Positions 4,555 through 31,810 of a stretch of DNA of 32,314 nt are shown piece after piece. Below the pieces are notes generated by a model, which was not told the origin of the DNA, searched no databases, and was given only the letters and a program-made list of their open reading frames with translations. The DNA is from an uncultured Chitinophagaceae bacterium. GTDB lineage: Bacteria > Bacteroidota > Bacteroidia > Chitinophagales > Chitinophagaceae. Position numbers and translations under genes: made by a program. Location: positions 1-32,314 of the forward strand of contig CAIKTE010000331.1 in NCBI GenBank assembly GCA_903830285.1. The letters are read 5' to 3'. Position 1 is the first letter of the stretch; every line of letters starts with the position of its first letter.

Positions 4555-4604
4555 ATAAAATGCATCTGCAGTAACTGATTTTTGCCCCTGTTGGTATTTT
4601 CATC

Positions 4605-4635
4605 AAAAGGATTTGCTAGTACAGTATCCTTTTTA
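4605..4635. terminator. Candidate bidirectional terminator between convergent genes
   Basis: An inverted repeat AAAAGGAT / ATCCTTTT with a 13-base loop lies between the GH13 gene and the convergent TlpA-like gene. A-rich and T-rich flanks would give a U tract on either strand. The stem is short (8 bp) and low in GC. Confidence 0.45.
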
Positions 4636-4748
4636 TTAATGAAAATATTTAAACAGTTTGTTGGTGAAATCACCCGGAACAACAGAATAGTATTTGTCAG
4701 TTCTTATTAAAACTATATTCTGCCATCGGGTAAGGGAATCATGAATGA

Positions 4749-15670: not shown

Positions 15671-15932
15671 TCGATCCAAACCCAGCTTTTCCAATAATTG
15701 CTGTTTTCAGAATAAGCTTTTCGCCTTCGATGCTGTTCCTTTCTAACGAAAAGTAAATAAAGCAACCTTGCCCCGGTTGGGTGTTTTCACAAACCGGTTT
15801 AATATATACAAGCTTTACAAAAATCAATATAGATATTATGATAAAAATTATAACAGAAACTTTGTTGATGAAAAACACCAACAAAGGCGCAAGACGAACC
15901 AAACCCAGCCTTTCCAATAAATGCTGTTTCAG
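15671..15932 (+). repeat. Pair of ~40-bp direct repeats (15671-15710 and 15893-15932)
   Basis: Both copies share CCAAACCCAGC, then TTTCCAATAA and TGCTGTTT, with a few differences. They are 222 bases apart and bracket the first ~150-bp repeat upstream of the metallophosphoesterase stop. The open frames that cover this stretch are repeat-derived and not convincing genes. The rest of the gap from 15446 holds the SusC leader and no other gene. Confidence 0.65.
15732..15887 (+). repeat. Long interspersed repeat copy 1, with GGTG-TTTT-CACC hairpin
   Basis: This is about 150 bases matching 16826-16993. It starts with TCCTTTCTAA, contains the hairpin CCGGTTGGGTG-TTTT-CACAAACCGG (15773-15797), then CTTTACAAAAATCAATATAG and ACAGAAACT. 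It ends with a second palindrome of the same family (15861-15887, GTTGATG / CACCAAC). Confidence 0.75.
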
Positions 15933-16825: not shown

Positions 16826-16993
16826 TTTTCCTTTCTAAATAAAATTCAATAAAATAACCCTGCCCCGGTTGGGTGCCTGCCTGCCGGCAAAGGCAGGTTT
16901 TCACCAACCGGTTTATCATACAAAAGCTTTACAAAAATCAATATAGAAATTTGGATAAATAGTAGTACAGAAACTATGATGCTAAAAACACCA
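16826..16993 (+). repeat. Long interspersed repeat copy 2, with nested palindrome
   Basis: This is the same repeat as 15732-15887 in the same orientation. The hairpin CCGGTTGGGTG ... TTTTCACCAACCGG carries an extra 22 bases in its loop, CCTGCC...GGCAGG, which are themselves palindromic (about 16875-16897). The shared right part (CTTTACAAAAATCAATATAG, ACAGAAACT, AAAAACACC) follows. Confidence 0.75.
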
Positions 16994-17982: not shown

Positions 17983-18729
17983 ATGAAATCAAATTATTTA
18001 TTGCTGTTAATTGCCATTTTTTCTCTTCCCTCTATGTTTGCATTTGCACAACCACATGAAAGAAACTTTAATGAATCATTTTTATTAAAAGAAAAGTTTA
18101 CGCATGAAAGAGTCTGGGATGCCCAGCGCTCACCTGCTTATCCGCAAGCAGGGAGAGATTGGACACTCTCGGGCTTTAAAAGGGCTTTTGATGTAAGTAA
18201 CAATGCTGTTTTGGACTGGGGTAGATACAATGACCGTTATCTTCAGTTTACAATTGAAGAAGATCACAGCTTCCGTCAGGGAACTTTTATGGATGATGTA
18301 AGTAATTCGCGGGCAAAATATGCTGTTGCACTTACTTTATATGAACGTGATGGAAGATTTGTAAAAGTTGTATCCAGATGGGGCGACCTTATAGGTTTTG
18401 GTTCTACCGGTTTTATGTATGTACAGCAGGGCTCATTCGGAACTTTCTTCTCCTATGATATGATGCGGGAAGGTGGGTCTATTACTTATCGTCCGGATCT
18501 TGCTCAAATAAAAAGTCTCTCAGAAATTATGGATGACCGCAGGCAAAGACCTCATGATAATTATGATAGGGCAATCTCGCAACCACATGAAAGGAGTTTC
18601 AATGAATCTTTTTTATTAAAAGAAAAGTTTACACGTGAAAGAGTATGGGATGCTCAGCGTTCACCTGCATATCCGCAAGCAGGGAGAGATTGGATGCTTT
18701 CAGGATTTAAAAAAACGTTCCTTTTTTGA
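17983..18729 (+). CDS. Secreted protein of unknown family with truncated internal duplication
   Basis: This 248-residue protein has a signal peptide ending in FAFAQ. Residues 23-199 form one unit rich in aromatic and charged residues (ESFLLKEKF, RVWDAQRSPAYPQAGRDW, WGRYNDRYLQFTI, VSRWGDLIGFGSTGF). At residue 200 the unit begins again: 200-246 match 23-69 at 42 of 47 positions, exactly 177 codons later. The second copy stops after GFKKTF with LF and a TGA, so about 130 residues are missing. The DNA copies (from 18049 and from 18580) also differ at silent positions, so the duplication is not recent. I recognise no domain family. The bulk-aromatic pattern suggests a beta-rich extracellular module, but that is inference. 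Confidence 0.75.
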   Translation: MKSNYLLLLIAIFSLPSMFAFAQPHERNFNESFLLKEKFTHERVWDAQRSPAYPQAGRDWTLSGFKRAFDVSNNAVLDWGRYNDRYLQFTIEEDHSFRQGTFMDDVSNSRAKYAVALTLYERDGRFVKVVSRWGDLIGFGSTGFMYVQQGSFGTFFSYDMMREGGSITYRPDLAQIKSLSEIMDDRRQRPHDNYDRAISQPHERSFNESFLLKEKFTRERVWDAQRSPAYPQAGRDWMLSGFKKTFLF

Positions 18730-18787
18730 GACTTTTTTTGGAACAACCTGTTTTTTGATAAAATTACCTCTCCAAATACCCCGCATT

Positions 18788-18853
18788 TTTCCCAAATAAA
18801 CGTTTCATTAATCAAAGTCCCATAAACGCAATATCGAACGTTTATTTGGGAAA
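18788..18853. repeat. 17-bp inverted repeat after the duplicated gene
   Basis: The arms TTTCCCAAATAAACGTT (18788-18804) and its complement (18837-18853) are separated by 32 bases. It lies between the truncated gene and the convergent TPR gene. It may be a terminator for both, or the ends of a small decayed element. Confidence 0.65.
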
Positions 18854-18924
18854 TTATTTAGCTATTCACTACTCTCCTATTTGCTCCGGTACTTGAACCT
18901 GATTGAAAAGCTTGTCTACAAAAA

Positions 18925-20266: not shown

Positions 20267-20460
20267 TTTTATGCCGTTATTGGTGAAATCAACAACATAG
20301 ACGAATTAAGTTAAAGAATAAGATGTCACCCTGAGGCACTCGAAGGGTGAAGTTAAATAACAAAGATCTCGTTCATCATGCTTCGAGAGCCTCAGCATGA
20401 CATAAGCTTCAACATTAAAATATATAAACTTTTTGCCGTTGATAGTGTTTTCACCAACAG
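20267..20460. repeat. Composite palindromic cassette 1 (B-A-A-B)
   Basis: Four modules lie in a row. The first is a GTTGGTGAAAAC-type half-palindrome (20267-20296, TTTTATGCCGTTATTGGTGA). Next is hairpin A1 (20326-20350, stem TCACCCT/AGGGTGA, loop GAGGCACTCGA), then hairpin A2 (20376-20400, stem TCATGCT/AGCATGA, loop TCGAGAGCCTC). The last is another TGCCGTT...TTTTCACCAAC module (20431-20460). The cassette fills the gap between the TPR gene and the end of uspA. The 65-residue frame through it is not a gene. Confidence 0.8.
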
Positions 20461-20471
20461 GGGCGAGAATA

Positions 20472-20909
20472 TCAATGCCTTTTTTTATTGATGGGTACAA
20501 CAATAATAGGCACCACCGAATGCCGTATTATATATTCTGCCGTACTTCCTGTTACCAAATGCATCATCCCTGTTCTCCCATGAGTTCCCATCACCAGGAA
20601 AGTTGTATGCTTTTGTATGCTGAGTTCAATGATATCTTCTTTGGGATCACCGATAAATGATATGATCTCTGTAGGAACATCGGTATGCCTGTCTTCCACT
20701 TCCTTTAATGACTTTAGGGCAAGATCTTTTCGGGCTTCCCATTGATTCTCAAAAACCTGACCCGTATCTAAAGGAACATAATCAATGAATTTATTAATGA
20801 TCGTTACCAGGGTAACCGATGCATTGATCTTTTTTGCCAGAGCATATCCCACTTTTTCCACTTCGGGAGAAAACTCACTGAAATCAAGTGCCATTAAAAT
20901 ATGATTCAT
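20472..20909 (-). CDS. UspA-family universal stress protein
   Basis: This is a 145-residue single-domain Usp protein of the ATP-binding type. It opens with the strand HILMALDFSE. The nucleotide-binding signature G-2x-G-9x-G-S/T is intact (G108, G111, G121, S122, within GTHGRTGMMHLVTGS), and the last strand is VVPIIVVPI. Such proteins bind ATP and dimerise under stress, and the exact role varies. It starts 21 bases after the stop of the DHA2 exporter, so the two are probably co-transcribed. A stress protein behind a TetR-controlled pump suggests one stress response. Confidence 0.92.
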   Translation of the reverse strand: MNHILMALDFSEFSPEVEKVGYALAKKINASVTLVTIINKFIDYVPLDTGQVFENQWEARKDLALKSLKEVEDRHTDVPTEIISFIGDPKEDIIELSIQKHTTFLVMGTHGRTGMMHLVTGSTAEYIIRHSVVPIIVVPINKKRH

Positions 20910-20930
20910 ACAATATATTGTAGCATGAAA

Positions 20931-22499
20931 TTATTCTATATTCCAATCCATCTCTGCTTCATCCAAAACAGCAGGCTTCTTCTTATTCCTGAATAACACC
21001 AACAAAGGTATTAGCAATAAAAAGAATAAACCCAGATAAGTGAACAGGTCTTTATAGGTTAAGAAAGTGGCCTGACCGAATATAGTTCTAGAGATCAAAC
21101 CATACGCATTTGCAGTGGCTGTTTGTATATCGAATCCTTTACCAACAAAAGCATTGGTCAGCATCTTCACCCTATCCTGTGTGGCTGGATCTGTTGCAGT
21201 AATATTTTCTGATAAATAAGAATAGTGTTTTGTAGTATCGATACTGATATAAGTAGTGATCAATGCAATGCCGATGCTTCCCCCCAACTGTCTTACCATA
21301 TTACTTAAAGCAGTACCCTGCGGTATTTCAGTACCTTCTAAATTAGATAGGGAAATGGTGGTGAGCGGAATAAAGATCAATCCCATGGCAAAACCGCGAA
21401 TGATCAATGGCCAGAAAAAATCATGCTCCCCGATCTGCGTATTCAACATACCCATACTGTAACTAAACACAAAAAATAAGAATAGTCCCAGGCCTGCGTA
21501 CACGGCAGGGTGCATCAGTTTTCTTTTCAGTAAAATACCTACAACAGGCATCATCACGGCGGTTGCCAAACTTCCGGGCAGCATCAGCCACCCCGTTTGC
21601 AATGCCGTAAAACCTAATAAGCCCTGACAAAATATGGGTATCACCAATGTTGTACCGTATAAACCGAATCCCAGCACAAAATTGAATAAAGTTCCTGTTG
21701 CAAAGCTGCGGTTATTGAATAAACGTAAATTGACCATCGGGTCTTTTTTCGTCAATTCACGATACACAAAAAACAATCCTGTTACTAAAGCCACTACAGC
21801 TAACACAGTGATATATCTTGTTTCGAACCAATCCTCACTTTGTCCTTTTTCTAATACGATCTGTAAGGAACCTATGGCTGCGATCAGTAATCCCAATGCC
21901 AGCCAGTCCATTTTGACTGACTTCGCTTTCATCATAGGCTCTTTGACATACATCAAGGTTAAGATGGTGGCCAATATGCCGAATGGAATATTGATAAAGA
22001 AGATCCATTGCCAGGACATATTATCCGTAATAAATCCACCCAGTGTCGGACCAATGGCAGGACCAACAATTACTCCCACCCCATAAATGGCATTGGCCAA
22101 TCCTAATTCTTCTTTGGGAAATGTTTCAATTAAGATAGCCTGTGCAGTTGATAATAAACCTCCTCCTCCAATGCCCTGCAAGACCCTGAATGCTACCAAT
22201 TCCCATACATTGGACGACAACCCGCAAAGCACAGAAGCGATCGTGAAGAAGATGATACTGGCAGCGAAATAATATTTACGTCCAAACCTGGCACTCATCC
22301 ATCCCGAAAGCGTGATCATGATCACATTCGATACAGCATATCCCGTGATCACCCATCCGATCTCTTCGAATGTGGCGCCCAGATTACCCATCATTTGCGT
22401 GAGCGATACATTCACAATGCTGGTATCGATCAGTTGCAGCAATGCAGCTGAAACAACCGTAAAGATCACAATGATTTTGTCTGCTGAAAATTTCGCCAT
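20931..22499 (-). CDS. DHA2-family drug:proton antiporter (EmrB/QacA type)
   Basis: This 522-residue MFS exporter has 14 predicted membrane helices, as in EmrB and QacA. It should expel hydrophobic toxic compounds by proton exchange across the inner membrane. The visible motifs are LQLIDTSIVNVSLTQMMGNL in helix 1 (the conserved acidic D of motif D1), GWMSARFGRKYYF (motif A), RVLQGIGGGGL (motif B) and GVIVGPAIGPTLGGFI (antiporter motif C). It lies between tetR (42 bases upstream) and uspA. No EmrA-like adaptor or TolC-like gene is adjacent, so any tripartite partner is encoded elsewhere or absent. Confidence 0.93.
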   Translation of the reverse strand: MAKFSADKIIVIFTVVSAALLQLIDTSIVNVSLTQMMGNLGATFEEIGWVITGYAVSNVIMITLSGWMSARFGRKYYFAASIIFFTIASVLCGLSSNVWELVAFRVLQGIGGGGLLSTAQAILIETFPKEELGLANAIYGVGVIVGPAIGPTLGGFITDNMSWQWIFFINIPFGILATILTLMYVKEPMMKAKSVKMDWLALGLLIAAIGSLQIVLEKGQSEDWFETRYITVLAVVALVTGLFFVYRELTKKDPMVNLRLFNNRSFATGTLFNFVLGFGLYGTTLVIPIFCQGLLGFTALQTGWLMLPGSLATAVMMPVVGILLKRKLMHPAVYAGLGLFLFFVFSYSMGMLNTQIGEHDFFWPLIIRGFAMGLIFIPLTTISLSNLEGTEIPQGTALSNMVRQLGGSIGIALITTYISIDTTKHYSYLSENITATDPATQDRVKMLTNAFVGKGFDIQTATANAYGLISRTIFGQATFLTYKDLFTYLGLFFLLLIPLLVLFRNKKKPAVLDEAEMDWNIE

Positions 22500-22519
22500 T
22501 CGCCTAATTTTTTAAATAA

Positions 22520-22539
22520 ATCGATCATGCAGGATCGAT
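22520..22539. promoter_or_regulatory. Inverted repeat between tetR and the exporter gene
   Basis: The arms ATCGATC and GATCGAT are separated by 6 bases and lie 20 bases before the exporter ATG. This could be a second binding site or a small hairpin that shapes expression in the operon. The match is short. Confidence 0.3.
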
Positions 22540-22541
22540 CC

Positions 22542-23114
22542 TTATGCTTTTAATCCATCCCAGCATAGGTTAAACATTTGTTCTATCAATTCCTTCGTTA
22601 TTTTCTTGCCACTGTATTTGCTATGCTTTACAAATTCATTGATACCGCCCACCATAAAAGTGAGCAGAATAAAACTGTCTGCATCTTTAATGATCTTTTC
22701 CGCCTTGCCTCTTTCTACTAATTTATACAAAGGATGCATCATTTCCTTGGTGATATGCTTTGTTGTTTCTGTAATAAAAGGGGAATGATAACATTGATCC
22801 ATGAATACCGCTTTTTCGAAATGTTCTGTTCTGAATTTCATCAGGTTTAACCAGATCACTTTAAACCCCGTTTTAAAAGGCAGGCTTGCATCATAATCCT
22901 TAAAGTAGATCTCAGCAGAAGCTTTTCTGCATTCCGTGAATAAGGCATTGATCAACTCGTCCTTGCTCTTAAAATAAATGTATAAAGTTCCGGTGGCTAT
23001 TTTAGCAGCACTGGCTATTTCTCCCATAGTGATACCCGCCACCCCTTTATCTTTTACTAACTGTAAAGTGGCTTTAAAAATGTGCTCTGTCTTCTTTTCG
23101 TCTTTAGGTTTCAC
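22542..23114 (-). CDS. TetR/AcrR-family transcriptional regulator
   Basis: This is a one-domain DNA-binding repressor with a C-terminal ligand domain. The helix-turn-helix region reads ITMGEIASAAKIATGTLYIY followed by FKSKDELINALF, the classical TetR pattern. The open frame extends to a GTG at 23144. I prefer the GTG at 23114 (about 190 residues) because it leaves the usual short tail before helix 1, and because a perfect 26-bp palindrome spans 23124-23149, covering the first codons of the longer version. An in-frame TAA directly before 23144 excludes longer forms. The gene precedes the DHA2 pump and uspA on the same strand, so it likely controls them and itself. The inducer is unknown. Confidence 0.9.
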   Translation of the reverse strand: MKPKDEKKTEHIFKATLQLVKDKGVAGITMGEIASAAKIATGTLYIYFKSKDELINALFTECRKASAEIYFKDYDASLPFKTGFKVIWLNLMKFRTEHFEKAVFMDQCYHSPFITETTKHITKEMMHPLYKLVERGKAEKIIKDADSFILLTFMVGGINEFVKHSKYSGKKITKELIEQMFNLCWDGLKA

Positions 23115-23123
23115 TTTCGCAAA

Positions 23124-23149
23124 CTTAAGTGAATAATTATTCACTTAAG
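23124..23149. promoter_or_regulatory. 26-bp perfect palindrome, likely TetR operator
   Basis: The half-site CTTAAGTGAATAA is followed directly by its exact complement with no spacer. It lies 9 bases before the preferred tetR start and would block transcription or initiation when bound. Size and position fit an autoregulatory TetR-family operator. Confidence 0.65.
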
Positions 23150-23247
23150 AATGATTTTTCATTGCTGTCAAATAAATGACGATTGCATGGCGTGGGCTAT
23201 ATTGTTGGGACAGTTGTTTTCTCAGGATCTTGCCAAAGACCCGATCA

Positions 23248-24270
23248 TTAATACTGGAAGAATATTTCGGTAGCGCCGTATCCGAAACGGGCATCATATT
23301 GATTGATGAAGGTCTTCACTTCTTTTCTTGTCTTTAAGATATCATGGATCTCATCACGCAATTTACCGCTACCCACACCATGAATGATGATCAGCGAAAC
23401 CTGATGATGTGCCACAGCCAGATGATACCATTTTTCAAATTCATCCAGCTGCATGGACAGGATCTCGAAATTGCTCATGTGCTTCCAGTTGTCCGACAAC
23501 TTTTCCATATGCAGGTCAACCACCGTTCTCGCAGGTTCTAAATTCTGGCGGATCTTATTGGCTTCATATACTTTATATCCTTTAGCAGCTAATCCCGTTA
23601 ATTCAAATTTATCGTCATCCATTTTATCCGGATATACATCGAAGAGTTTATAAGGAATGGTGGGTTCATTCTTTTGTTTCATTTCCTCTATCCGCTGAAA
23701 TACCTGTTTGGGCTTTAGTTTCAGAGATGTTTCAAAATGCGGTGCTTTCTTTTTTTCGGGATTCAGTAAACTGAAATCGAAATGAAAAGAAGGACTGTCA
23801 TTCACCGTTGCAAAAGAAATATCATGCAAATAAAAATCATGAAATGCAAGTATCTCTGTATTCAATTCAAAATCACTTTCATTCGTGAATTTCTGCGCAT
23901 AATGAAAGGCATAATTCTTATCGGTACGATTGATCAAATGAATTTTCAAAAGATCCACCACTTCATCATTGAATTCGTCCAACGAAAATTTAGGGATGAA
24001 TGATAACCAAACACCATCGGACACTTTGGTCTCGCTGGGTCTTGGTTTTTCTTTGGGAATATTATCTACAAAAACTTTTTCCTTTTTCTTTTCTACCACT
24101 TTCTTTTCGGAGAAGCGTTTAAAATAAGGGAAATCGATCTGATCCATATAGGCGGGAAATTTTACACCACGCACTTCTATCATCACCATCTTGTCATTCA
24201 TGATCTCCACTACCCTGCCCTCTTCATTACTGTGCAGCACTAATATTTCGTCACCAATTTGATATTTCAT
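23248..24270 (-). CDS. DUF2027 / Smr-domain protein
   Basis: This is a 340-residue cytoplasmic protein. The N-terminal ~60 residues form a small KOW-like beta domain (GDEILVLHSNEEGRVVEIMN), followed by a charged linker (KKVVEKKKEKVF) and a central beta-rich DUF2027 region (about 90-245). The last ~90 residues are an Smr domain: TVVDLHMEKL, then IIIHGVGSGKLRDEIHDIL, then ARFGYGATEIFF. Smr domains bind or nick nucleic acids; in other bacteria and in eukaryotes some act in ribosome rescue or mRNA cleavage, and MutS2 carries one. The HGxGxGxLR motif is intact. Its ATG overlaps the stop of the upstream permease gene by four bases, so the two are translated from one message. Confidence 0.9.
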   Translation of the reverse strand: MKYQIGDEILVLHSNEEGRVVEIMNDKMVMIEVRGVKFPAYMDQIDFPYFKRFSEKKVVEKKKEKVFVDNIPKEKPRPSETKVSDGVWLSFIPKFSLDEFNDEVVDLLKIHLINRTDKNYAFHYAQKFTNESDFELNTEILAFHDFYLHDISFATVNDSPSFHFDFSLLNPEKKKAPHFETSLKLKPKQVFQRIEEMKQKNEPTIPYKLFDVYPDKMDDDKFELTGLAAKGYKVYEANKIRQNLEPARTVVDLHMEKLSDNWKHMSNFEILSMQLDEFEKWYHLAVAHHQVSLIIIHGVGSGKLRDEIHDILKTRKEVKTFINQYDARFGYGATEIFFQY

Positions 24271-25958
24271 TCTCCTAGATCCTTTTTTAATTTACTGTTC
24301 TTTTTTCCATAAATAAAATAGATGATCAATCCCACACTCATCCACACAAAGAACCATAACCAGCTGATGGCAGGGATCTCGATCATCAGATACAAACAAC
24401 ACAATGCACCCAGATTGGGTATCAAAGAATAATTTCTGATAAAACTAAGTGTGGATACTACCACAGTGATCACCAGAAATAAAAGAAACAGGAACTCCTG
24501 ATAACCTTGTGTTGAATAATTGGAAAATGCATCCTGCAGTCTTTGATGAAACAACCAGATAAATGCAATTGCGATCAGGGGCAGAATATATTTTCCGTTG
24601 ATATATGGTAATTTAAATCTTCCCTGTGTGGTGTTTTCCAATCGCGGCAAGAGCAATACACCAAAGCAAACCAATACAAATGCAAACAGTGTTCCGATAC
24701 TGGTAAGATCCGTCATTAAACTGCTGGGCATAAATAAGGAAGGAATTCCCACGAGGATCCCTGTGATCACGGTAGCAAATGCAGGTGTATGAAATTTGGG
24801 ATGGATCTTTGCAAATCGTTTAGGCAATAATCCGTCACGGCTCATGCTCATCCATATTCTGGGCTGCCCTAACTGAAACACCAGCATCACACTGGTGGTT
24901 GCTACCACGGCACTGATGGAAATGATATAGCCGATCCATTGCAGATTCAATTTATCAAATACATAAGCCAGCGGATCGGTCACTTTCAATTCTGAATATT
25001 TAACCATCCCTGTCAATACCAAAGCGATCAAAATATACAATACAGTACAGATGATCAAAGAATAGATCATGCCTCTCGGCAGATCGCGTTGGGGATTCTT
25101 ACATTCTTCCGCTGTTGTGCTGATCGCATCAAAGCCAATATAGGCATAGAATACCGCCGATACCCCGGCCAGCACACCACCAAACCCATTGGGCATGAAT
25201 GGATGCCAGTTACCCGTGTTTACATAAAAGAATCCAATGGCGATCACTAAAATGATCACCACTATTTTAAAGATCACCATGAAATTGGTGGTCTTCTTAC
25301 TTTCTTTAATTCCGATATATGCTAATATGGTGATGAGTACCACAATTACAAATGCAGGAAGATTAATGAAAACATGTTTGCCTAAAAAAACAGGCGCACT
25401 GTTCCATGCAGCAATGGCATATTGCATCACTTCACTTAATGGCTGATGTGCATTGCTTGCAGCGATCGCTTCATCAAAATTCTTAGAAGCTGTGATAGGA
25501 TCAGATAGCAACCAGGCAGGCAAATGAATGCCTAATCCCTGTAATAGATTATCAAAGTATCCGCTCCAGCTGATAGCCACCACAATATTTCCGATCGCAT
25601 ATTCCAGTATCAATGCCCAACCGATGATCCATGCTACGATCTCTCCAAAACTAACATACGCATAAGTATAAGCACTGCCTGCAATAGGCACACGACTGGC
25701 AAACTCAGCATAACATAAGGCACTGAATCCGCAGGTAACAGCCGTAATGATAAAAAGGAATGCGATACCCGGTCCGCCGTTAAAAGCTGCCGTACCTATC
25801 GTTGAAAAGATCCCTGCACCAATAATCGCAGCAATACCCATGAAAGTAAGATCACGCACACCCAATACTTTATGTAGCTGATGCGTGTGACCGTCCGTTA
25901 ATCCTGCTTCTGTATCGGCTACTATTTTTTCAATAGACTTCTTTCTGAAAAGCGACAT
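24267..25958 (-). CDS. APC-family amino-acid permease
   Basis: This 563-residue inner-membrane transporter belongs to the amino acid-polyamine-organocation superfamily, closest in pattern to cationic amino-acid transporters such as YfnA. It has at least 12 membrane helices. The first carries the family's unwound substrate-binding motif (IIGAGIFSTIGTA), and SRVPIAGSAYTYAYVSFGE is also typical. A loop of about 60 residues between the third and fourth helices (LLSDPITASKNFDEAIAASN and on) and two extra C-terminal helices make it longer than the common 460-490 residues. The substrate cannot be read from sequence. It overlaps the Smr gene by 4 bp. Confidence 0.9.
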   Translation of the reverse strand: MSLFRKKSIEKIVADTEAGLTDGHTHQLHKVLGVRDLTFMGIAAIIGAGIFSTIGTAAFNGGPGIAFLFIITAVTCGFSALCYAEFASRVPIAGSAYTYAYVSFGEIVAWIIGWALILEYAIGNIVVAISWSGYFDNLLQGLGIHLPAWLLSDPITASKNFDEAIAASNAHQPLSEVMQYAIAAWNSAPVFLGKHVFINLPAFVIVVLITILAYIGIKESKKTTNFMVIFKIVVIILVIAIGFFYVNTGNWHPFMPNGFGGVLAGVSAVFYAYIGFDAISTTAEECKNPQRDLPRGMIYSLIICTVLYILIALVLTGMVKYSELKVTDPLAYVFDKLNLQWIGYIISISAVVATTSVMLVFQLGQPRIWMSMSRDGLLPKRFAKIHPKFHTPAFATVITGILVGIPSLFMPSSLMTDLTSIGTLFAFVLVCFGVLLLPRLENTTQGRFKLPYINGKYILPLIAIAFIWLFHQRLQDAFSNYSTQGYQEFLFLLFLVITVVVSTLSFIRNYSLIPNLGALCCLYLMIEIPAISWLWFFVWMSVGLIIYFIYGKKNSKLKKDLGE

Positions 25959-26090
25959 GCGAATGATTTTGATAAATGGGAAGATAGTAACTAATGTATT
26001 TAGAATATTATTTTATTACACGAATTTTGGCTAATACACATAATTTAAGCAATCCCATTTATCCATTGTTGTAATTTAATCTTTGCTAAT

Positions 26091-26158
26091 GTTCCTTTCT
26101 AAAGAAAAGTCAATGAATTACCGACGCCACGGTTGGGTGTTTTCACCAACCGGTTTCG
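26091..26158 (+). repeat. Interspersed repeat copy 3 (short form)
   Basis: This copy begins GTTCCTTTCTAAAGAAAAGT and contains the hairpin CGGTTGGGTG-TTTT-CACCAACCGG (26129-26153). It matches only the left part of the ~150-bp repeats near 15.7 and 16.9 kb. Confidence 0.7.
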
Positions 26159-26240
26159 GTGAGTTACATACTTTATAAAAAGCTATCATTTGGTAACTTT
26201 AATGCATGCAATTAACACAGTACTATCCACAGTTTTTTAC

Positions 26241-26303
26241 TGCCACGAATGCACGAACTAACAGGAATGATTGTACATTATATTTATTCGTGCATTCGTG
26301 GCA
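26241..26303. repeat. 17-bp inverted repeat, GCCACGAATGCACGAA type
   Basis: Perfect 17-base arms (26241-26257 and 26287-26303) are separated by 29 bases. Two related TTCGTGTAAT direct repeats (26552-26561 and 26571-26580) lie farther along in the same 627-base gap, next to the polyprenyl synthase stop. Confidence 0.7.
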
Positions 26304-26415
26304 TTTCTATTTTCTTCGCCTCTGCTGGTCGCTGACCAACAGGTGTTCGGAAGAAATTTAGACCATCACTTTAACTAATATTTTATGCAGCTGATCGTAG
26401 GAAGATAAATTGAAT

Positions 26416-26472
26416 CCGGTTGGTGAAAACACCCAACCGGGGCTATGCTTTTATTTAGCTTTCTTCAAAAGA
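26416..26472 (-). repeat. Interspersed repeat copy 4, inverted relative to copy 3
   Basis: It reads CCGGTTGGTG-AAAA-CACCCAACCGG (26416-26440), then GGCTATGCTTTTATTTAGCT, on the plus strand. This is the reverse complement of the left half of copies 1-3. With copy 3 it brackets the inverted repeat at 26241-26303. Confidence 0.7.
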
Positions 26473-26585
26473 AGACCACGAACAATAAATCTAATAGGGG
26501 TATATTTTCTGAATTAGTTTATTTGACGAATTCTTAAAGTTTGTTTCCTAATTCGTGTAATTCGATAGCATTCGTGTAATAAAAA

Positions 26586-27551
26586 TTAATAGTCTCTTTG
26601 TATTAAAAATGCTGCTAATTCGATCAGTGATTTTTTTCTAATAGATAATACAGCAATATCTTCCAGATGCTGCATGGCTGTTTGCAGATATTTTTCTTTT
26701 AACTGATTAGCCCATTCATCCACATTGCAGGCCCTGTAAATGGCCAGCACTTTTTCTACTTTATCTGCAGGGTTTGTACTGATCAATTCCTGTAATGCTT
26801 CTTTTTGATTTGCAGATGCGCTTGCTAAAGTATGCAGCATCAAAAAGGTCTTTTTATTCTGTCGGATATCTCCGCCCATATCCTTTCCGAATTTTTCGGG
26901 ATTGCCGAAAGCATCTAAATAATCATCCTGTATCTGAAATGCGATACCCAGATTTTTTCCAAACTCATAGATATGCCGGCAATTATGTTCGCTGGCACCT
27001 CCCAGGATCGCTCCCATTTCCAAACTTGCTGCCAGTAAAACAGAGGTCTTCAAACTGATCATGGCAATATAATCATCCATCAAAACATGATCCTGTTTTT
27101 CAAAGTCCATATCCAGTTGCTGACCTTCACAAACTTCTCTGGCGGTTTTATTGAACAATGCTAAAATGCGCGGCAGATAATTGATATTGATCTTGTTGAT
27201 ATAATCGTAAGAACGTATCAGCATTACGTCTCCGCTAAGTAAGGCAGTATTATCTCCGTATTTTTTATGCACGGTTTCCATGCCGCGGCGCAGACTGGCC
27301 GCATCCATGATATCATCATGTATCAAAGTGAAATTATGAAACAGTTCTATCGCTATGGCTGCCTGAAATGTATCGGGATTGATATCTGCAAACAATTCAT
27401 TTCCCATTAAACAGATCACCGGTCTGATCCTCTTTCCTCCCAGTGATAAAAAATAATCACAGGGTTCATATAGTGTAGCCGGATGCTTCGGAAAATGCTC
27501 TATCGCAAACCGTTCTGCAAATATTTTTACAAGTTCGTTAAATGAATGCAT
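26586..27551 (-). CDS. Polyprenyl (isoprenyl) diphosphate synthase
   Basis: This 321-residue trans-prenyl transferase joins isopentenyl diphosphate units to an allylic primer for quinone, carotenoid or lipid-carrier synthesis. Both Asp-rich Mg-binding motifs are intact: LIHDDIMD (D79-D83), followed by the RRG substrate site, and IQDDYLD (D209-D213). GGKRIRP near residue 38 is the IPP-binding segment. F74 lies five residues before the first Asp motif, a position that usually limits chain length, so a C15-C20 product is possible but not certain. A perfect -7-like TAGGTTTG lies only 5 bases before the ATG. It is divergent from the next gene. Confidence 0.93.
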   Translation of the reverse strand: MHSFNELVKIFAERFAIEHFPKHPATLYEPCDYFLSLGGKRIRPVICLMGNELFADINPDTFQAAIAIELFHNFTLIHDDIMDAASLRRGMETVHKKYGDNTALLSGDVMLIRSYDYINKININYLPRILALFNKTAREVCEGQQLDMDFEKQDHVLMDDYIAMISLKTSVLLAASLEMGAILGGASEHNCRHIYEFGKNLGIAFQIQDDYLDAFGNPEKFGKDMGGDIRQNKKTFLMLHTLASASANQKEALQELISTNPADKVEKVLAIYRACNVDEWANQLKEKYLQTAMQHLEDIAVLSIRKKSLIELAAFLIQRDY

Positions 27552-27671
27552 AGCGCAAACCTACTCAGAAAACTAAAAGAAAGTTTAAAATAATTTTTCT
27601 AACTGTTTTTTATGAATTCAGTGGGAATCTTTTGGCATGATTTTGTCTAATGTTGTTTCAAATTAATCCTT

Positions 27672-28154
27672 ATGAATAAGATCCTATTAATTCTAGCATT
27701 CATTTCCATCAATTCCATCAGCTTCAGTCAGCAAATTAATACAGGCAGTGATTATACAACAGCCATTGGTGTAAAAGTATTCCCCGGGGCATTGGATATA
27801 AAACATTTCATCAAACCCAATGCTGCGGTAGAAGGGCTCGCCTATTTTTGGCAATATGGTTTTAGAGCAACGGGATTATATGAGATCACCGGAAATATCA
27901 ATACGGTAGAAGGACTAAAATGGTATCTCGGTCCGGGTGCGCATATTGGTTTTTATAATACAAAGTATGCCACTGATTATCCAACTCGTCAAAATGGTGT
28001 TGACTTTGGCATTGATGGTGTGATCGGATTGGATTATAAGATCAAAGGAGCACCCATTGATATAAGTTTTGATTGGCAACCCTCTTTTAATCTAATAGGC
28101 ACCAATAATTTTGAAGGCGGCTGGGGCGGTTTAGGGATCAGGTATACTTTATAA
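27672..28154 (+). CDS. Small exported beta-barrel-like hypothetical protein
   Basis: This 160-residue protein has a signal peptide (ILLILAFISINSISFSQQ). The remainder is made of alternating short beta strands rich in Gly and aromatic residues (AAVEGLAYFWQYGFRATGLY, LKWYLGPGAHIGFYNT, FGIDGVIGLDYKIKG, ISFDWQPSFNLIG) and ends GGLGIRYTL. This is the pattern of small Bacteroidota outer-membrane barrels with eight strands. I cannot assign a named family. It stands alone, with a palindromic cassette directly downstream. Confidence 0.7.
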   Translation: MNKILLILAFISINSISFSQQINTGSDYTTAIGVKVFPGALDIKHFIKPNAAVEGLAYFWQYGFRATGLYEITGNINTVEGLKWYLGPGAHIGFYNTKYATDYPTRQNGVDFGIDGVIGLDYKIKGAPIDISFDWQPSFNLIGTNNFEGGWGGLGIRYTL

Positions 28155-28172
28155 TATGATTTTCGCCCTCCT

Positions 28173-28380
28173 TGCTGTTTTCACCAACAACGGCATAACT
28201 TTTAAAACGAGATGTCACCCTGTCCAAAGGACTCCGTTGGAGAGGCTCTCGAAGGGTGAATTCAATTAATTGATACATTTCGTTCATCATGCTTCGAGAG
28301 CCTCAGCATGACAAAACATTTTGTAATTATACAATGAATGCCACTCCTCATGCAGCTTTCATCAACAACGACATAAAAAG
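28173..28380. repeat. Composite palindromic cassette 2 (B-A-A-B)
   Basis: The module order is the same as at 20267-20460. It starts with TGCTG-TTTT-CACCAACAACGG (28173-28199). Hairpin A1 follows (28215-28259, stem TCACCCT/AGGGTGA) with 20 extra bases in the loop that contain GTCC/GGAC and TCCAA/TTGGA palindromes. Then come hairpin A2 (28287-28311, identical to A2 of cassette 1) and TTTCATCAACAACGACATAA (28357-28376). No gene lies here. Confidence 0.8.
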
Positions 28381-28387
28381 GTTTGGG

Positions 28388-28666
28388 TTAAAATGAAAGC
28401 TTACTTATTTCAGTAAAAACTTCCCTTGTTGTTTCTTTATCATAAACACCCGCGAAAATGTACAAATCATTTATAGAACCATTTAATATTAAGGCTTCCT
28501 CATTGCTGATGCTGTTTAAACGCATACTATTTACTATAGCGCCAACATCTCCATGCTTTGAGCAAACCAAAAGTTTAACAGTATGACTATTACTAAACCC
28601 AATGGGGGTCTTATTAATTAAATGCTGACTTTCTGCCAACTTCTGTATAGCATCTTTTAAATTCAT
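28388..28666 (-). CDS. Hypothetical protein of about 92 residues
   Basis: The frame is open to a GTG at 28726, with further ATGs at 28720 and 28702. The first ~15 codons lie inside a palindromic repeat (28697-28725), so I prefer the ATG at 28666, which gives MNLKDAIQKLAESQHLINKT. The rest looks like a small alpha/beta domain (HTVKLLVCSKHGDVGAIVNS, EALILNGSINDLYIFAGVYD, then a final helix). I recognise no family and see no export signal or catalytic motif. If the longer start is real, the repeat has been recruited as coding sequence. Confidence 0.5.
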   Translation of the reverse strand: MNLKDAIQKLAESQHLINKTPIGFSNSHTVKLLVCSKHGDVGAIVNSMRLNSISNEEALILNGSINDLYIFAGVYDKETTREVFTEISKLSF

Positions 28667-28696
28667 AGCACAAGCTAATACTAACCAAACATGTTT

Positions 28697-28725
28697 CGCC
28701 ATTGTTGATGAAAATGCCATCGGCA
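28697..28725 (+). repeat. Single GTTGATGAAAA-type repeat copy
   Basis: GCCATTGTTGATGAAAATGC is a variant of the TGCCGTTGTTGGTGAAAACA module seen in both composite cassettes. It overlaps the 5' extension of the hypothetical gene ending at 28388. Another copy (TTGGTTTTTTCACCAACAAGG) lies at 29010-29030. Confidence 0.55.
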
Positions 28726-28763
28726 CTACATTTTAGCAACAAACTTTTTTTGAAGAACTTTTC

Positions 28764-28997: not shown

Positions 28998-29152
28998 TTT
29001 TCGTCCATATTGGTTTTTTCACCAACAAGGATTAAAGCAAATAATAGAACACAGATGAAACTGATATTCGCTGATAATGCCGCAAAGCGGCATCAAATCC
29101 GTTCTCATCAGCAAATTCCGTGTCATCCTCGTTCTATTTATTTTTCCAACAA

Positions 29153-30617: not shown

Positions 30618-30728
30618 ATCCGTTTGATTTATGAGGTTTGAGGTATTAAGTATTTAAAAATGCTCCTATTACTGAAATAGTCAAAGCGTTTTATAAAAGG
30701 ACAATGTTCGTTAAGTTAAGGACCGCGA

Positions 30729-30805
30729 TGTCATGTTGAGGCTCTCGAAACATGATTTTATAGCGTTCATTCCATTGAGCACTCTTCGAGAGCCTCAGAG
30801 TGACA
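30729..30805. repeat. Palindromic hairpin pair (A-A), third copy
   Basis: There are two hairpins with the same conserved loop as in the cassettes: 30731-30755 (stem TCATGTT/AACATGA, loop GAGGCTCTCGA) and 30780-30802 (stem CACTCT/AGAGTG, loop TCGAGAGCCTC). The outer B modules are absent. This pair, the terminator at 30895 and AT-rich filler make up the 333-base gap upstream of ftsY. Confidence 0.8.
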
Positions 30806-30894
30806 AACCATAACTTAATTATAGAACCTAAACATATTTATTTCCAAGTAATAAAGAAAAGCTTTAATGCTTGCTATAAAATTATACAAATAAC

Positions 30895-31743: not shown

Positions 31744-31810
31744 CTTCTTCGTAGCCTCTTCGTATCTTCTTCGTACTAAGTCCGTCAATTGACGGACTTA
31801 GTACGAAGAA
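31744..31810. repeat. 11-bp tandem repeat leading into a perfect 44-bp palindrome
   Basis: CTTCTTCGTA-like units begin at 31744, 31755 and 31766, exactly 11 bases apart. The third unit is part of a perfect palindrome (31767-31810, centre CCGTCAATTGACGG, no spacer, no mismatch). It lies about 205 bases before rocD in the 467-base gap between rpmB and rocD. Apart from the rpmB promoter I see nothing else certain in this gap. Confidence 0.85.

Follow-up and report, generated by a model that had tools for sequence, protein, structure and literature searches.

Two B-A-A-B palindromic cassettes of a Chitinophagaceae contig are probably nested repeats of two families, one of them most likely the REP of a RAYT clade

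Subclass 2.6 (group 5) of the REP-associated tyrosine transposases (RAYTs; REP, repetitive extragenic palindromic) is described, in the part of PMC6006769 considered here, as a Bacteroidetes-centred group of HUH transposases with the motifs NH[LIV]H and YIH[QN]NP. According to the same part, atypical hairpins border these RAYTs and recur elsewhere in the genome, so that associations of this kind are already known. The present work concerns two composite palindromic cassettes, each with the module order B-A1-A2-B, in a 32,314-nucleotide stretch of DNA (hereafter the window). The window is contig C331 of a 3.99-Mb draft genome of 384 contigs from an uncultured Chitinophagaceae bacterium. A reading made from the letters alone (the sequence-only reading) had taken the cassettes for a mobile non-coding element, moved as a unit or rebuilt by a REP-type transposase. 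The interpretation we favour, and regard as probable, is that two unrelated repeat families are nested in the cassettes, RAYT-type B ends having come to enclose A pairs through separate events. A striking composite pattern is thereby explained as ordinary nesting.

Two covariance models were used to map the modules: R1, for the B hairpin, built from 16 sequences (eight of them from the window), and R2, for the A pair, built from 24 sequences of the window's genome. All four modules proposed for the gaps 20267-20460 and 28173-28380 were found in both, in the order claimed:

20273..20301, + strand: cassette 1, left B palindrome, decayed, starting with GCC; left edge of the insert that best fits the comparison with the related genome G004 (R1, 19.0 bits)
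20322..20403, + strand: cassette 1, whole A pair, a REP/BIME-like heterodimer (BIME, bacterial interspersed mosaic element; R2, 98.4 bits)
20326..20350, + strand: cassette 1, A1 hairpin, TCACCCT-GAG..CTC-GA-AGGGTGA
20376..20400, + strand: cassette 1, A2 hairpin, TCATGCT-TC-GAG..CTC-AGCATGA
20435..20464, + strand: cassette 1, right B palindrome, GCCGTTGATAGTG-TTTT-CACCAACAGGGGC; right edge (breakpoint) of the best-fitting insert (R1, 34.5 bits)
28165..28194, + strand: cassette 2, left B palindrome, GCC..TTTT..GGC (R1, 34.2 bits)
28215..28259, + strand: cassette 2, A1 hairpin with a recurrent 20-nt loop extension
28287..28311, + strand: cassette 2, A2 hairpin
28340..28372, + strand: cassette 2, right B palindrome, strongly decayed, a direct repeat of the left B (shuffle test; missed by R1)

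The A pair of cassette 2 scores 72.3 bits with R2; at both sites A1 and A2 form strong hairpins. Run over the genome, R1 finds three of the four cassette Bs, at 20433-20466 (34.5 bits), 28163-28196 (34.2 bits) and, weakly, 20271-20301 (19.0 bits, E 0.046); the first two were among its 16 training sequences. The fourth, 28340-28372, is not detected by R1; it repeats the left B of the same cassette directly and in degenerate form, with an alignment score of 43 that none of 5000 mononucleotide shuffles and none of 1728 window tiles reached. Some details of the sequence-only reading had to be corrected. The B modules, described there as half-palindromes, are decayed full palindromes, which leaves little meaning to the opposite orientation ascribed to them in the two cassettes; moreover, the three that R1 detects all score better on the + strand than on the other (19.0 against 14.7, 34.5 against 17.8 and 34.2 against 12.0 bits). 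The 20-base loop insertion of cassette 2 is present, but it is not peculiar to one copy: among the loci examined, 10 A pairs, that of cassette 2 among them, hold near-copies of it in one arm or the other, and strings like it are also found outside A.

Family B, which is separate from A, is built on the palindrome GCC..GTTGGTG-TTTT-CACCAAC... In G002, another genome of the same genus, two B hairpins (44.3 and 43.0 bits) bracket an uninterrupted RAYT frame, L207, of 172 codons from stop to stop with Met as the second. The frame carries NHLH and YIHQNP, like the subclass 2.6 RAYTs in the cited part of PMC6006769; its placement in that subclass is a provisional one that rests on these motifs and not on a tree with subclass members. 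With the NCBIfam model NF047646 (REP_Tyr_transpos) it scores 79.7 bits, 0.3 below the cut-off of 80. A PF01797 search of 39 genomes, the window's own included, gave 93 matches in 30 of them, and 68 loci, which hold part of these matches, were scanned for repeats; the search is borderline for this group of RAYTs (L207 itself, E 0.004). At E < 0.01, R1 marks L207, L273, L244 and L285 among the 68 loci, and L238 on one side. A tree of 42 of the 67 transposase matches (nine without a frame holding the searched motif and 16 with DHxH instead of NHxH were excluded; L237, which has stops, was not read) groups L207, L273, L274, L244, L283 and L285 in a clade with support 100/99. All six RAYTs of this clade have hairpins of this general shape on both sides, shown at L207 by R1 and at the remaining five by a hairpin scan; their cores are variants of TTGGTG-loop-CACCAA (TTGGCG, TTGGTC, TTCGTG, GTCGGTG). 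The clade members other than L207 belong to the same family or order as the window. Of the 17 loci in the hairpin scan, 11 lie outside the clade: none of these is flanked on both sides in this way, a single upstream hairpin of the type being present at L238 and hairpins of other types at several.

A shrunken remnant of the same element lies in the window itself:

26094..26445, no strand assigned: RAYT element relic (left B 26124-26158, right B 26411-26445)

Positions 26094-26248 are 95% identical to the matching end of the G002 RAYT locus, first codons included. The relic reads left B, leader, first codons, other sequence and right B, 32 nt of the latter being identical to its counterpart in G002, and the likeness runs on past both hairpins, for about 30 nt on the left and about 24 nt on the right. 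The bracketed L207 frame, the hairpins of its clade and this relic lead us to read the B pairs as RAYT-type ends. On sequence comparison, this RAYT clade most likely has B as its REP, with the B pairs as RAYT-less derivatives. The proposal of a mobile non-coding element served by a REP-type transposase is thus supported for B. What this adds is a Chitinophagaceae hairpin family tied to a likely RAYT, in a branch whose hairpins the cited part of PMC6006769 calls only atypical; the hairpin can now be spelled out, as GCC..TTGGTG-4 nt-CACCAA.. in this genus, for one clade. The site of the window's genome that is orthologous to the G002 RAYT (contig C373, locus L099; flanks 89% and 83% identical) holds one B, then 27 nt and the other flank, with no transposase.

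Within the relic, positions 26241-26303 form an inverted element with arms CACGAATGCACGAA and TTCGTGCATTCGTG, which meets the transposase frame at a short identical stretch, TGCCACGA. The search of the window's genome for RAYTs that the sequence-only reading had called for did return one PF01797 match at E up to 0.01, on contig C235, with one in-frame TAG and without A or B hairpins. This Y1 transposase was rejected as the mover of A or B, its own hairpins being different. The locus (L043, C235:38618-38872) is a RAYT adjoined by hairpins GCCAGACTTTGTCTGGC; a very similar frame without the stop exists in G001 (L247).

At E up to 1, R1 finds 50 matches in the genome, which merge to 48 places, 10 of them in the window; 45 score 17 bits or more, and a few of the 48, counted to so high an E, may be chance. 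The exact B 12-mer of the sequence-only reading occurs 12 times in the genome, five times in the window, against four for the reversed control. B is therefore a repeated palindrome of the kind expected of a RAYT-associated REP or REPIN (inverted doublet of REPs), extragenic as judged within the window. In 47 distinct rows its stem shows more doubly changed cells, and a higher covariation score, than all 500 shuffles; the number of base pairs with double changes is not above the shuffles (322 of 500). GCC stands at the outer end in 43 of 56 rows. Convergent B pairs spanning 90-132 nt, which are inverted doublets, occur on C207, C106, C220, C218 and C376 and at C331:15768-15890; singles and tandem arrays (C169, C121, C220) are also found. 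These extragenic inverted doublets of short palindromes resemble the REPINs of Bertels and Rainey (PMC3116915), whose proposed spreader is a RAYT, as described in the part of that paper considered. In comparison with that description, B is sparse (48 sites), its spacer is variable and some of its pairs hold other repeats. Searches for REP, miniature inverted-repeat transposable element (MITE) and palindromic-repeat literature gave no paper on REPs of Chitinophaga among the matches listed.

Family A is a fixed pair. Used as a DNA query, cassette 1 gives 57 matches in the genome, itself included; the non-self matches stay within positions 54-179 of the query, the A pair and a short adjoining stretch, and none extends into B. 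R2 finds at least 150 matches on both strands, which merge to at least 83 places, or at least 81 without the two weakest (E 0.13 and 0.26). In 24 rows the A stems hold 19 cells with both sides changed, as against 2.7 in shuffles; in 114 rows, an alignment fitted to the model that includes both strands of most pairs, there are 221 against a shuffle mean of 72. Each stem has two unpaired bases. TGTCA occupies the outer end in 101 of the 114 rows, and the most frequent arm pairing is ACCCT with ATGCT. Equal stem cores in the two arms occur in none of the 36 arm combinations seen in these rows (both strands counted); the arms are always of two stem types, a pattern that avoidance of equal arms, or inheritance of the pair as one unit, would give. 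A is thus an inverted pair of imperfect palindromes in many copies (at least 81 places), as BIMEs and REP pairs (PMC2817692) are. Like the BIMEs of E. coli, it has inverted palindromes of two arm types, a regular spacing and a stem bulge. It differs from such pairs in having no GTAG or CGTC tag (none in 114 rows) and no linked RAYT: R2 finds no A pair at any of the 68 transposase loci (best E 0.47), although diverged A-like hairpins could escape a model built from one genome. As a RAYT-linked REP, A is not supported on these 68 loci, nor is the idea of a REP-type transposase for A. A text search with four A-type core strings found no publication. A is a BIME-like heterodimer family, and no transposase was linked to it among the loci scanned.

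Do A and B belong together? An R1-detected B lies within 200 bp of four of the 81 listed A pairs (two of them on both sides), and 77 have none. Four such neighbours are seen where about two to four are expected, so that proximity as such is not in excess. Three of the 81, namely cassettes 1 and 2 and C346:15693-15867, are bracketed by B when the decayed copy at 28340 is counted, as against a rough, post hoc expectation of 0.13-0.24; both expectations assume an intergenic share of 12-23%, which is a guess, and 13 B pairs counted by hand. The sequence-only reading had named, as what would refute it, independent occurrence of A and B with no excess of the B-A-A-B order. This is largely what was found, A and B lying mostly apart and no closer than roughly expected; bracketing above our rough, post hoc estimate is the one point in its favour. 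The two cassettes are not duplicates of a single block, nor are their A pairs each other's closest: in a comparison of 42 A pairs, cassette 1 has that of cassette 2 in 14th place of 41, and cassette 2 has that of cassette 1 in 13th place of 39. With the A pair taken out, the three composites measure about 110, 104 and 93 nt from B to B. These values fall within the range of about 90-132 nt of uninterrupted B pairs, consistent with B preceding A.

Orthologous sites, whose comparison had also been called for at the outset, were examined for both cassettes. In G004 the cassette-1 site is empty between the genes for a tetratricopeptide repeat (TPR) protein and a stress protein. The best breakpoints define an insert of 192 nt, which opens with the GCC of the left B and closes with the final C of the right one; no target duplication is seen against this empty site. 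In G002 the same site is filled otherwise: B-like hairpins stand at the same borders (the right one an R1 match of 22.2 bits, the left one, CTGCTGTTGAAAACAGCC, judged by eye) and enclose a different insert, an element with GCCGCAAAGCGGC at its centre (element C), with flank and repeat partly duplicated in tandem.

These data bear on the view that B-A-A-B is a single composite non-coding element that moves as a unit. The three cases with their similar spacing, the B-to-B extent of the best-fitting insert of cassette 1 and the bracketing above rough chance all speak for it. Set against them are the small share of A pairs concerned (3 of 81), the fact that the two cassette A pairs are not closest relatives, a B orientation that differs between cassettes 1-2 and C346, and the other insert between B-like hairpins in G002. 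We conclude that B-A-A-B is not one composite element; movement as a unit is not supported, given the mostly separate occurrence of A and B, the A pairs not being closest relatives and the different filling in G002, and a unit of this sort seems to us extremely improbable.

The G002 site would also suit B pairs that act as RAYT-ended shells with exchangeable cargo, be it A, C or the RAYT gene: site and borders are the same and the filling differs, an A pair in one species and an unrelated palindromic element in its sister, the RAYT frame is the filling in L207, and other sequence replaces most of that frame at 26094-26445. If true, a domesticated-type transposase would move or refill cargo-bearing REPINs. 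Yet no foreign filling was found in two copies whose flanks differ, simple nesting of insertions between Bs would account for the same data, and 77 of the 81 listed A pairs have no detected B near them. We regard such shells as unlikely. Nesting by separate events, the interpretation we prefer, recalls the REPs that serve as insertion targets in the relevant part of Tobes and Pareja (PMC1525189), where mobile elements land in REPs and give nested structures; the case treated there is that of insertion sequences, whereas the nested parts here are short non-coding repeats.

At the cassette-2 site three relatives (L104, L105 and L106) are empty, the stop codon being followed directly by a T-tailed terminator. 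L104 and G004 represent one assembly (identical in 37 of 37 tiles), and L105 and L106 agree in match lengths and identities with G003 and G001, respectively; the three are therefore G004, G003 and G001 of the four other genomes of the genus (G001-G004) used for site comparison, and not further genomes. The window is about 990 nt longer than L104 at this site. The additional stretch, absent from the three same-genus genomes, contains cassette 2, a 112-aa frame, another B (29001-29034) and a copy of element C. The frame, at 28388-28726, has no Pfam match and lies in the stretch that parts the gene 27672-28154 from its terminator. G002 carries near the terminator an A pair of another arm type (C67:1-76), at a contig end. 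The B pair 26124-26445 is likewise absent in L104, L105 and L106.

REP sequences affect mRNA ends, and two cassette Bs sit close to the stop codon of the adjacent frame: the right one of cassette 1 at a distance of 7 nt and the left one of cassette 2 at 10 nt. Both facts could favour A and B as gene-end regulatory hairpins (terminators or mRNA stabilisers) under selection rather than ends of mobile elements. But at the cassette-2 site an ordinary T-tailed terminator directly follows the stop codon in the relatives, cassette 2 lies within a stretch that separates the gene from its terminator, and elsewhere B brackets a transposase frame. A regulatory origin of this sort is, in our estimation, very unlikely.

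Returning to nested repeats with RAYT-type ends, a number of observations weigh against this interpretation. A rival placement of the cassette-1 breakpoints scores close to the best (194.7 against 196.9), and for the C346 composite no empty site could be read, since in the relatives the matches of its two flanks lie on separate contigs. The Bs of cassettes 1 and 2 are decayed and not convergent by the model, and those of C346 diverge, so that none of the three shells is a clean convergent pair. The NF047646 cut-off is passed by one of the six clade members (L244, 92 bits), the others scoring 61-80. No B-bracketed RAYT was found in the window's own genome (a draft of 384 contigs, PF01797 at E up to 0.01, a search borderline for this clade); in this the genome, with its B copies, departs from the flanked RAYTs of the cited part of PMC6006769. 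In five copies (15725, 16817, 26081, C218 and G002) conservation extends about 35 nt beyond the left B, which implies that in this subfamily the element exceeds the hairpin and B is subterminal. By R1 labels alone B does not cluster significantly on the RAYT tree (a value as low in 78 of 500 shuffles), because R1 marks L238 and misses L274 and L283. Finally, B lacks the tags that the two large REP super-families have at one end of the palindrome: 1 of 56 rows has a GTAG-type and 2 of 56 a CGTC-type tag. The consulted part of PMC3733652 lists super-families with GTAG or CGTC tags and also records untagged REP-like families, hence the missing tag does not exclude a RAYT linkage.

In the scheme we propose, B would be the end or near-end hairpin of a small RAYT element, and the RAYT-less B pairs of about 90-130 nt would be its REPIN- or MITE-like derivatives. 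By analogy with the studied RAYT and IS200 enzymes, the transposase would recognise the folded single-stranded B hairpin and cut next to it, and the B pairs may have been moved by this RAYT. At each cassette B would have come first and A second; this order is suggested by the B-to-B boundaries of cassette 1, by spans similar to those of pairs without an insert and by the other filling seen in G002. A genome with the repeats in which no matching transposase was found, and a sister that has one, make a natural pair for asking whether REPs of this kind depend on their RAYT for persistence and spread.

The remaining repeats of the two families in the window are as follows:

4582..4682, no strand assigned: probable B pair, with a strong left B (39.7 bits) and a very weak right one (10.2 bits, E 0.79)
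15768..15890, no strand assigned: uninterrupted convergent B pair of 123 nt (R1)
16860..16916, + strand: B hairpin with a palindromic insertion in the loop (R1; match in G002)
29001..29034, + strand: single B palindrome, followed by element C at 29049-29142 (R1)
30727..30806, + strand: third A pair of the window, without B (R2, 82.9 bits)

The pair at 15768-15890 is bordered by a 35-nt direct duplication (15672-15706 and 15895-15929, 91% alike). Host DNA is also directly duplicated, over about 35-65 nt, around B pairs at L035 (C207, by eye) and on C411 of G002. The hairpin with the loop insert CCTGCCTGCCGGCAAAGGCAG (16862-16914) has a 53-nt copy, 98% identical, at C274:7643-7695 of G002. The hairpin seems to have moved together with its insert, given near-identical copies with different flanks in two species. 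Neither for this site nor for that at 15768 did the four other genus genomes give a match spanning the site with both flanks. Element C, a repeat with the same central motif as the insert at the G002 cassette-1 site, has four matches in G002. The A pair at 30727-30806, with no R1-detected B within 1000 bp, is absent in G004; in G002 a start of it seems to be left beside other sequence (by eye).

The genes that flank the cassettes form an ordinary set: the TPR protein, a universal stress protein, a major facilitator superfamily (MFS) transporter, a TetR regulator, a polyprenyl synthetase and an SRP54-type GTPase. The closest matches of the polyprenyl synthetase are from uncultured Chitinophagaceae (91% and 88% identical), followed by a Bacteroidota bacterium (87%). 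An Rfam scan of the window gave no match at gathering scores. A repeat of about 150 nt at 18709-18859, containing AACGTTTATTTGGGAAA, has matches of 74-90% identity in all five genus genomes, and positions 31767-31810 form a perfect 22-nt inverted repeat with zero spacer.

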